DNA of 17,789 bases from Candidatus Delongbacteria bacterium (GTDB lineage: Bacteria; UBA4055): positions 1 to 17,789 of the forward strand of contig JAFGVM010000068.1 in the NCBI GenBank assembly GCA_016937995.1, given 5' to 3'. Shown piece by piece: positions 114 through 7,500 of the stretch (the first letter of the stretch is position 1; each line of letters starts with the position of its first letter). A program made the position numbers and the translations under genes. Under the pieces are notes generated by a model that was not told the origin of the DNA, did no database searches, and was given only the letters and a program-made list of their open reading frames with translations.

Positions 114-1460
114 CTATTTAGTCCTCGCAATACGAAACCCGCCGTAGGAGTTCCTGCCGCCGGGGTCGTTGCCGTTGCGGTCAGAAACTTTGCAGCCGGC
201 GTCGAGGTTGCCCCACGACCCGCCACGAACAACACGGCACTGTCCCTGCGTGTACCAGTCCCAGCACCATTCCCAAACATTTCCACTCATATCATGAATT
301 CCTAGCTCATTAGCTCTTTTTGTAGCTACGGGTTGTGTCTTTGATCCGGAATTTCCATCATACCAAGCAACATCACCGACATCATTACTCCCACTATAAG
401 TGTTTCCTCTGCTCTGATTTCCGCCCTTAGCCGCATACTCCCATTCAGCCTCTGTCGGCAAACGGTAACCGTTCGCTTTGAAGTTACAATTCGTACTTTT
501 TCCGCTTCCCGAATAGCACTTTGTCAATCCTTCCATTTCACTCAATTTGTTGCAGAACTCAACAGCATCGTACCAGCTTACTTGCTCGACAGGTAAGTTA
601 TCTCCTTTGAAATTACTCGGATTATTGCCCATTACAGCTTTCCACTGAGCTTGGGTCACTTCCGTTTTACCTATATAGAAATCGCTTCTGGCATATACCA
701 TATTCGATTTTATTTCACTTATAGCATATCTGTATTTATTTTTAATTTCTGCTATCCGCCTTAACTCTTCTGCATTTCTCCTTTCTTCTTCAGTTTTTTT
801 ATCATTCCTCAATTTCTTCTCTTCGTTGCTGAGCAATGCCGTATATTTGCTGCTTGGATAATAAATTTTGAATTTATCGAACTCCGGTGAAAAATTATTC
901 ATATATTTATCAAGAGAGTCAAAGTATTCGTTAACACTTTGTCCATACGGTAACAAAAACCACTTCATATATAAATAATGCGCTTGTTCCGCCAAATCTG
1001 TGTTTGTATCATTCATCAGCTTTATAATTATTTGCTTTGATTCTTCTTTTTTGTCTTGTTCAAAAATGTGCTTTGCATATCGCAGTTCTTTGAATGTGAT
1101 ATCTTCTTCTACTGTAGATTTAACTTTTCCTACAAGAACTACCGAATAAGTGCCGTCAGACCCGTACCCGTTGTCTATTATCTGGAATCCCGGCATCAGA
1201 ACTGTCTCTGCTTGTGTTTCAATGTAATCGTAAGTGGTCTGGAAGTTTTCAACTTTCGTAGTGGATTTGAGTTTCAATCCCGCTTTTTCAAGAGCTTGAC
1301 GTTTTGCGTCCATTATAGCTTCCTGCCTGTCTTTCTGCTCGCCGTTCTTGTAATTGTCGCTTACTCCTCTTACAGCTACATCTACAAGGGCTTGTGCTTT
1401 TAATAGTGTGCTGAAAATTAACAATGTCACAAATAATAGTTTCAGGATATTTTTACTCAT
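114..1460 (-). CDS. Secreted FGE-sulfatase/C-type-lectin-fold protein, candidate DGR variable protein
   Basis: 448 residues. The N-terminus is a signal peptide (hydrophobic residues 7-20, A-Q-A cleavage motif at 22-24), so the product is exported. Residues ~25-115 resemble the LPP20/FlgT N-terminal type of fold (an alternating strand, then a D-A-K-R-Q-A-L-E-K-A-G helix). Residues ~212-245 are a charged helical linker rich in K/E/R. Residues ~258-448 form an FGE-sulfatase (SUMF1-like) domain, shown by IGKTEVTQAQWKAVMG, YRLPTEAEWEYAAKGG, GNVWEWCWDW, VVRGGSW and the terminal GFRIA. The catalytic cysteine pair of true formylglycine-generating enzymes is not kept: only C423 aligns, and the other position falls on a variable codon. 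A binding role is therefore more likely than catalysis. ATG 1460 is preceded by GAGG eight bases upstream. The last ~35 codons have base composition unlike the rest of the gene (see the variable-region entry). The fold assignment is firm; the ligand is unknown. Confidence 0.9.
   Translation of the reverse strand: MSKNILKLLFVTLLIFSTLLKAQALVDVAVRGVSDNYKNGEQKDRQEAIMDAKRQALEKAGLKLKSTTKVENFQTTYDYIETQAETVLMPGFQIIDNGYGSDGTYSVVLVGKVKSTVEEDITFKELRYAKHIFEQDKKEESKQIIIKLMNDTNTDLAEQAHYLYMKWFLLPYGQSVNEYFDSLDKYMNNFSPEFDKFKIYYPSSKYTALLSNEEKKLRNDKKTEEERRNAEELRRIAEIKNKYRYAISEIKSNMVYARSDFYIGKTEVTQAQWKAVMGNNPSNFKGDNLPVEQVSWYDAVEFCNKLSEMEGLTKCYSGSGKSTNCNFKANGYRLPTEAEWEYAAKGGNQSRGNTYSGSNDVGDVAWYDGNSGSKTQPVATKRANELGIHDMSGNVWEWCWDWYTQGQCRVVRGGSWGNLDAGCKVSDRNGNDPGGRNSYGGFRIARTK
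120..239 (-). other. Candidate DGR variable region (VR) at the 3' end of the FGE-domain gene
   Basis: Read on the minus strand, codons 417-440 (212 down to 141) are 20 of 24 NNC, including GGC, AAC, CTC, GAC, GCC, CCC, TCC, TAC and CGC. That is the set expected when AAC codons of a template repeat are copied with adenine-specific mutagenesis. By hand count the block is 48/72 G+C in an AT-rich genome. The protein frame is C-R-V-V-R-G-G-S-W, six variable residues, C-K-V-S, variable, R, four variable, P, two variable, R, four variable, G-F-R. This matches the spacing I know from DGR targets of the Treponema TvpA/C-type-lectin kind. The invariant 3' part (codons GGG TTT CGT ATT GCG AGG) would be the initiation-of-mutagenic-homing end. 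No template repeat or reverse transcriptase is in the window, so the DGR is inferred from the VR signature alone, and its outer limits are approximate. Confidence 0.72.
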
Positions 1461-4557: not shown

Positions 4558-7500
4558 TTATACAACTCCTTCACACTTATCAATTATATCCTCAAAACTT
4601 CCCAACAATCTCTTGATGTTCTCGATATCAAAATTGTTAACGGCATTTTTCAATTCTTTGGAAAATTTTGAAATTGTGTTGGAATTATGCTGAACTGATA
4701 ATTTTTCAAGTTCAGATGAAAATTCTTTGATATCATCAAGATTTTGTTTTTCAATTGAATTTCTGTATTTATTAAAGATCTCTCCCTTGAGTTTTCTGAA
4801 AAATATTTCAGGATCTTTCAATTCTTCGTCCAGAATATAAATCTCCTTTGTATCCTGTTTAACTGTGAAAGGAATGAATTCTCTGAACTTGTTCAATAAC
4901 TCTTTTCTGGAAATCGGTTTTCTTAAATAACCGCTGAATCTAGATCTTTCCAGTTTAACACTTTCACTTGACATCACAGATGCAGTAACAGCAATGACCG
5001 GAATATTCACTAAACTATTATCCGACTTAATTTTGCTTATAGCCTCATATCCATCCATTTCAGGCATTCGTATATCCATCAATATGATATCAGGAACATA
5101 GAATTTTGCCATTTCAACAGCTTCCTTTCCATTAACAGCTTCAAAAACTTCAAAACCATGTTCCTCGCATAATTCTCTCAAAAGAATTCTGTTAGATTCA
5201 ACATCATCAGCGATCAATATCTTTCTCTTTTCAAAAACAATATTCTCGAAGGTGTTTTCATCATGATCAACTTTTTTTATTTCACTGTCTATATGAACTT
5301 TCAGAAGATCAATTATGAATTTAGTACCCTTGTTCAATTCACTTTGAACTTGAATACTACCATTCATCATTTTTACCAGATTACTTGTAATTGCTAGTCC
5401 AAGACCTGTTCCTTTTGTAATTCTTTTAATTTTCGGATCTGATACCTGTACGAAAGGTTTGAATATTTTTTTCAAGTTCTCCGGGCTCATGCCCATCCCG
5501 CTATCTTCAATGATCAACCTGATATCAGTATATCTTGGTTTAATATTTCTGAATTCTGTGATAAGCTTAATGTATCCTTTATTTGTAAATTTGATAGAAT
5601 TGCTTATAAGGTTGAAAAGTATCTGTCTAAGTCTGCTTTCATCGAGAACTATCATATTAGTAATATCAGACTTGTGTTCGATTAAGAACTCAAGCCCTTT
5701 TAACTTTAGTTCCTTTTCAAAAAATTGCTCGATCTCATAGACGGTACTTACCAAATTAAAGCTGGAATATTGTAATTCCATTTTTTTTGCTTCTATCTTT
5801 GAGATATCAAGTATATCATTGATCAGATTCAATAATGTGTTCCCGCCAGCTTTTATTGTCGAGATATAGCTTAATTGTTTACTTGTCAAAGGTGTCTTTT
5901 CCATAAGTTCGGTAAATCCGATTATTGCATTCATCGGAGTTCTTATCTCGTGGCTCATATTCGCCAAGAACTCACTCTTGGCATTTGTAGCTTTCTCGGC
6001 AACATTCTTTGCTTTAACCAATTCGATCTCAGTTTTTTTCCTCAGATCTATCTCTCTGGCCAGTCTCCTGTTCCAGAAAAAAATGAATATCATTACTACC
6101 AAAGAAAAAATTATTACTTTCCATACAAGTGCATAATCTATAAGATCGCCTTCTTTGCCATGCCATTTTTCGAAAATTGAATTTTTTTCCTCAATAGAAA
6201 TAGTAGCAATAGATTTATTAATTATGCCCAGTAAAATTCTGTTATACTTTGATACTCCGATCTTATAATCACGGGAATATTCTGTAACTCCAACTACTTT
6301 CAGTGCTGTCAGCATCTTTTCTTTCTTGGAGTACTGAAATTCTGAATAGTGTCTTAAGAAAAGATCTATCTTTTTCTTTACAAGGTCGTTATAAGCAATG
6401 TCAGGATCCGAATAATAATAAAGTTGAATTTCCGGATAATCCCTTTTGATCAACTCTGTCTCTGAAGTTCCTTCTTGCACACCCAGTTTTAAATTTCCCA
6501 CTTTTTCCAACCCATCGACAAAATCCTGATCATTACGTCCAATAATAATAACTTGTGAAGTGAACAGCACATCAGAAAAATCCATGTATTTTGCTCTTTC
6601 AGTAGTTTCAGAAACCCCGTCTATAATATCAATAGCTCCGGATTGCATGAGTTTTAATGTTTCTGCCCAGTTCTCACTTCTTACCCTCTCAAATTTTATG
6701 CCTGATCTTTCTGAAATAATGCTCCAAAGATCAGCTATAATCCCAACGTAATTACTATCCTGATCATACATTGAGTTCGGTGGCCAATAAGGATCACCTG
6801 AAATTTTAATCACAGGATTTTCTCCCAACCACTCATTTTCCCTTGTATTAATCTCGATCTTTCTGGTAGACAGGATCGATTCACCAAACCATTTGTTCCT
6901 GAATTCCCTGTTTTGTTTTTCAGGAATACTTCTGAGCACTTTGTTTACTATATTCAGCAATATTGTATCATTCTTAGTTACACCGATCGAAATTTTAGCT
7001 CTCCAGTCCGGAAGTTCATTGACGACCTTAAGGTTTGTAATTAGTTCTTCCTGGGATATATGTGTAAATGCTGGTAAGTTTCCAATATAAGCATCAGCTT
7101 GACCGAAAGATACTGCCTCAATACATTCTTTGTTTGATGATTTTAATACCGGAAATACTTTTATCCCTGAAGCATTTATATACTCATGGATGTATGAGTC
7201 TTTATTAACTGCGATCGTTTTACCTTTAAGATCATTGAATTTCTTTATATCATCTCTGTCCGATTTTATAATTATCACTAAAGGAACATCTATGAACGGA
7301 TCTGAAAATTTTAAAAATTCATCCCTGTTATTTGTTCTTACTACCGCAGAGATACCTTCATAAATTCCTTTCTTTGCATTCTCCAGTACAAATGACCACA
7401 CACCCGGAACCACATTGATCTTGATCCCGGTCTTCTTTTCAATAACGTTAATATAATCAGCTGACAGACCGGTATGTTTATCATTCTTATCAGCAAAATC

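Follow-up and report, generated by a model that had tools for sequence, protein, structure and literature searches.

Window positions 126-236 (the window being the whole 17,789-nt stretch that was analysed, G000:C13:1-17789 of a 2.75-Mb draft genome) are identified as the variable repeat (VR) of a genuine diversity-generating retroelement (DGR). We favor, with a probability of roughly 95%, a complete chromosomal DGR that has a cis target in the window and a trans target on contig C56, the latter having gained its module by recombination that left a relic behind. The parts of the DGR, a mutagenesis pattern confined to adenines, two targets, a concerted VR core, a mosaic gene, and the relic are all observed in the assembly, a fragmented draft of 99 contigs with a contamination estimate of 1.6%.

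The cis target gene (114-1460, minus strand) encodes a 448-aa protein with a signal peptide, read by eye, a FlgT_N-like region (sub-threshold match to Pfam PF16548), a charged linker, and a C-terminal FGE/C-type-lectin domain (Pfam PF03781, E = 2e-41). The G+C content of the window is 34.6% overall, and when the whole window is scanned, 72-bp stretches with 48 G+C start at positions 133-198 only, which is the end of the target gene. A recount of positions 141-212 equals the hand count in the sequence-only reading that had pointed to this gene end (48 of 72 bases are G or C and 20 of 24 codons end in C), and the invariant residues that it named (RGGSW, C, R, P, and GFR) are all present. The variable region is real, and the interval first assigned to it, 114-239, is slightly too wide. 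The block of homology to the template repeat (TR), here VR1, has 111 nt and covers positions 126-236 on the minus strand (codons 409-445).

The other parts are on contig C40, all on the minus strand: an intergenic TR (C40:10194-10304) in which 15 of 37 codons are AAC, avd (C40:9551-9895), and a reverse transcriptase gene (RT; C40:8473-9561) that lies downstream of both and is the only RT match in the genome. The Avd protein scores 111 bits against a cutoff of 80 for the NCBIfam equivalog NF033474 and also matches Pfam PF22296 (bAvd). The top PDB match of the RT is the Bordetella DGR RT (bRT, chain 8ub7; E = 8e-52), with group II RTs at 8e-20, and its IGNLTSQ and YMDD motifs align with IGSLTSQ and YMDD of bRT. 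Judged from these motifs and a difference of ∼30 orders of magnitude in E-value, the RT is DGR-type. The spacer between TR and avd holds no known RNA in Rfam. A GC-rich inverted repeat, GGAGCGG...CCGCTCC, is present there (L002:10045-10090, on C40, minus strand), likewise without an Rfam match, and is possibly part of the DGR RNA spacer. Directly 3′ of the RT is a toxin-antitoxin-like HEPN/nucleotidyltransferase pair (L002:7733-8403, on C40, minus strand).

The TR, avd, and RT are thus on a contig separate from the cis target, and two features support the junction of C13 and C40. Positions 1-31 of the window are exactly those of C40:10310-10340, and this 31-nt overlap is found nowhere else in the genome, even allowing three mismatches. 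In addition, the C56 locus, which is within a single contig, is homologous across the joint, the alignment reaching position 151 of the joined sequence. Because this homology runs over the joint, it supports adjacency of the two contigs. In the joined cassette the order is target/VR, inverted repeat, TR, avd, and RT, all on one strand. A DGR-type RT and a template of AAC codons had been anticipated left of position 1, and both are present, together with avd.

Differences between VR1 and TR follow the pattern expected of adenine-specific mutagenesis. Over 111 nt there are 24 differences, and all 24 are at the 41 TR adenines (hypergeometric P = 1.1e-13), while 70 of 70 non-adenine sites are identical, as had been proposed for a template of this region. 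The changes from TR comprise 16 A>G, 4 A>C, and 4 A>T. Codon positions 1 and 2 hold 37 of the 41 TR adenines; VR1 has ∼20 changeable codons and ∼7e21 protein variants are reachable in theory. With TR, Avd, and RT found and every VR/TR difference at an adenine, the earlier claim that the gene ends in a DGR variable region is upheld.

The second target, on contig C56, encodes a protein of 741 aa that combines a caspase domain (PF00656; SGHG and DACR motifs are in its sequence) with an FGE domain, and ends in a second variable repeat, VR2. Relative to TR, VR2 has 25 differences, of which 22 are at TR adenines (P = 3e-9) and the three others are all in the first 12 nt. VR1 and VR2 are identical to each other at 58 of 58 constant core sites and at 29 of 29 third positions.

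These counts bear on the possibility that the DGR is genuine but was recently silenced, its VRs being fossils of past rounds. Decay may occur in the family, as genome G008 has genes with VR-like ends, a remnant of a TR, and a piece of an RT that breaks off at a contig end. On its contig C51, a PEGA-FGE gene (L076:6444-8276) is followed by the shared inverted repeat and an apparent 22-nt TR end, and this locus looks like a decayed cassette; the TR of G008 may be in an assembly gap. However, the reading frames of RT and Avd in the C40 cassette are intact and there is no non-adenine drift from TR in the core (70 of 70 sites in VR1; 58 of 58 in the VR2 core). Long silence would have eroded the match, and we consider recent silencing improbable.

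Agreement at third positions addresses a different explanation, that the C56 gene is a retired paralog whose VR resembles that of the cis target by common descent, with no homing in trans. Consistent with descent, all three non-adenine mismatches of VR2 fall within its initial 12 nt, and the surroundings of C56 show duplication and recombination. The mismatches are also compatible with joining of cDNA inside the VR. Moreover, common descent predicts like values on both sides of the VR boundary, but between the two targets, third-position identity is 54% in the FGE domain before the VR versus 29 of 29 in the VR core (Fisher P = 1.4e-7). This jump implies that one template was recently copied into both targets, a pattern that descent alone does not explain, and descent without homing is quite improbable. 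We infer from the pattern that this TR homes in trans as well, into the caspase-FGE gene on C56.

Of 11 FGE paralogs in the genome, only two fit the TR, and a whole-genome pattern search returned TR, VR1, and VR2 only. Among the other loci of the genome that were examined, the best matches TR at 38 of 70 constant sites, versus 70 for VR1 and 67 for VR2, and the remaining FGE genes were rejected as further targets. That the GC-rich 3′ end reflects horizontal transfer or codon bias in an ordinary FGE paralog, without mutagenic copying, is scarcely credible: such paralogs are many and have naturally variable C-termini, but the exact non-adenine match to a noncoding AAC-rich repeat beside RT and Avd (P ∼1e-13) and the fit of only 2 of 11 paralogs refute it. 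A prophage origin of the system was also rejected, as the nearest viral RTs are 38% identical versus 43% for those of family members, and flanking genes look ordinarily chromosomal. A TR-like stretch in viral contig L099 is inside a long unrelated phage-like gene with no RT seen, and was attributed to chance. A weak Avd-like frame on contig C73 (L071:17183-17485) is interrupted by a stop and has no RT or TR seen beside it.

Both targets are composites, and the homology of their parts suggests how they arose. The N-terminal part of the cis target (residues 1-206; 843-1460, minus strand), the acceptor scaffold, shares 70% identity with a protein without an FGE domain from a genome of the same genus (G012, contig C133). 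DNA homology to FGE genes on other N-terminal scaffolds (caspase on C56; PEGA on C51 of G008) starts abruptly at gene nucleotide 776, near codon 259, which marks the start of the FGE/C-type-lectin module (residues 259-448; 114-686, minus strand). The homology extends past the stop codon and through an A+T-rich inverted repeat. Since the N-terminal half occurs without an FGE domain in a relative and the module boundary is abrupt, the cis target is read as a graft, a chimera of an exported-looking N-terminal half and a TvpA-like FGE/C-type-lectin domain.

In the C56 gene, the caspase part is 74% identical in DNA to orthologs in two other genera (G008, contig C39; G003, contig C250), genes that end in GFRVVRLP. 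The FGE part is instead of the type in the window, with 72-84% identity to it versus 35% to the orthologs over the 100 bp that tell the two apart best. After the FGE part come the inverted repeat, the initial bases of a TR, and then a 56-bp stretch with 82% identity to the old 3′ end of the orthologs. This relic behind a swapped-in module points to replacement by recombination, by which the C56 gene would have gained its FGE/VR/inverted-repeat module from a copy of the cis-type module. The sequence CGTGTTGTTCGT (RVVR) is common to the start of TR and the 3′ end of the G008 ortholog and is a plausible crossover point. We give even odds to the fuller scenario, that a new target arose when the whole FGE/VR/inverted-repeat module, together with the first TR bases, recombined into an existing caspase-FGE gene, with the crossover at CGTGTTGTTCGT shared by the start of TR and the 3′ end of old targets; the repeats may thereby guide spread to new effector proteins.

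The A+T-rich inverted repeat (36-67) is ∼58 bp past the VR and is also conserved 3′ of the second target and of related modules. In phage DGRs, a hairpin with a 7-10 bp GC-rich stem and a GRNA loop is 4-34 bp from the VR (PMC3240598). A GC-rich hairpin of that form with a GRNA loop is not present near the VR, where the A+T-rich inverted repeat at ∼58 bp is the only such element; it may be a target-site hairpin or a terminator.

The lectin domain has as its top PDB match TvpA (2y3c), a solved DGR variable protein, and Foldseek agrees, so that Pfam, PDB, and Foldseek all bear out the FGE/lectin fold first proposed from sequence. A model of the full-length target has a mean pLDDT of 68.5 and is reliable in the lectin core only, with low confidence at the VR codons; the VR is at the 3′ end of the gene, as in targets with a C-type-lectin fold. 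Catalytic FGEs carry a pair of active-site cysteines close to the C-terminus. The target has a single cysteine (C423) in its last 37 residues, which makes FGE catalysis unlikely. The N-terminal signal peptide suggests that the protein is exported. The target is most likely a hypervariable, exported binding protein, and the caspase-linked copy points to possible coupling between binding and an effector. A role in recognition of prey or host, as had been put forward, is a guess.

Similar elements occur in relatives. Genomes G001 and G003 have TR/VR pairs of their own with the same adenine bias. Contig C8 of G003 (L074) has two TR-like repeats, a caspase-FGE gene, and a broken RT, and there are two other RT loci in G003. 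Small genes resembling HEPN/nucleotidyltransferase are, by eye, near DGR parts on this contig (L074:578-883 and 5393-6089). FGE-domain proteins are unusually numerous family-wide, with 3 to 16 matches per genome across 13 genomes, and several of their genes cluster on contig C47 of G006 (L080).

We propose a mechanism that carries predictions on present-day enzymatic activity, export, ligand binding, and biological role. TR RNA would be copied by a complex of Avd and RT with errors at adenines, and the FGE-lectin gene would have its 3′-terminal VR replaced by the cDNA, yielding a binding protein with ∼20 changeable codons. The same TR would be copied in trans into the caspase-FGE gene on C56, which would earlier have taken its FGE/VR/inverted-repeat module by recombination, the relic of its former 3′ end being left downstream. 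With this system, a lineage in which FGE-domain proteins abound gains an apparently exported DGR that has two targets, one of them a hypervariable lectin fused to a caspase. The system is also a readable example of DGR target recruitment, which the literature consulted infers mainly from domain modularity. The caspase-lectin gene is found in three genera, and a TR was identified in two of these; the gene could serve to test if an immune or cell-death sensor is tuned by DGRs.

Features of the DGR are shared in part with each of several known systems. Like that of Bordetella phage BPP-1 (Mtd, Avd, and bRT), it has adenine-specific TR/VR changes, Avd, an RT that is related over its length, and a VR at the 3′ end of a C-type-lectin-fold gene. 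The BPP-1 system is however in a phage and ordered target-avd-TR-RT, whereas the one described here is chromosomal and ordered target-TR-avd-RT, has two targets, and is without the GC-rich GRNA-loop hairpin close to the VR. The DGR of Treponema denticola is likewise cellular and its variable protein TvpA has the FGE subtype of the fold, is the closest solved relative of the target lectin domain, and matches it in the location of the C-terminal variable part in the alignment. TvpA consists of one domain, in contrast to a lectin domain grafted onto an unrelated N-terminal part and a second target fused to a caspase. Cyanobacterial and Thiohalocapsa DGRs have remote targets in which caspase-like or other effector domains are fused to hypervariable lectin domains, with signs of domain shuffling (PMC7517822, PMC10907252). 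Remote modular targets and the caspase fusion are common to both. Unlike in those systems, targets here look exported, by their signal peptide, the former 3′ end can still be recognized after the swapped-in module, and no transposon is seen at the junction. Chimeric DGR targets formed via recombination have already been proposed (PMC8144416). Targets in trans, targets fused to caspases, and grafting of modules are known from other DGRs, and the footprint that they have left in this genome is unusually legible.
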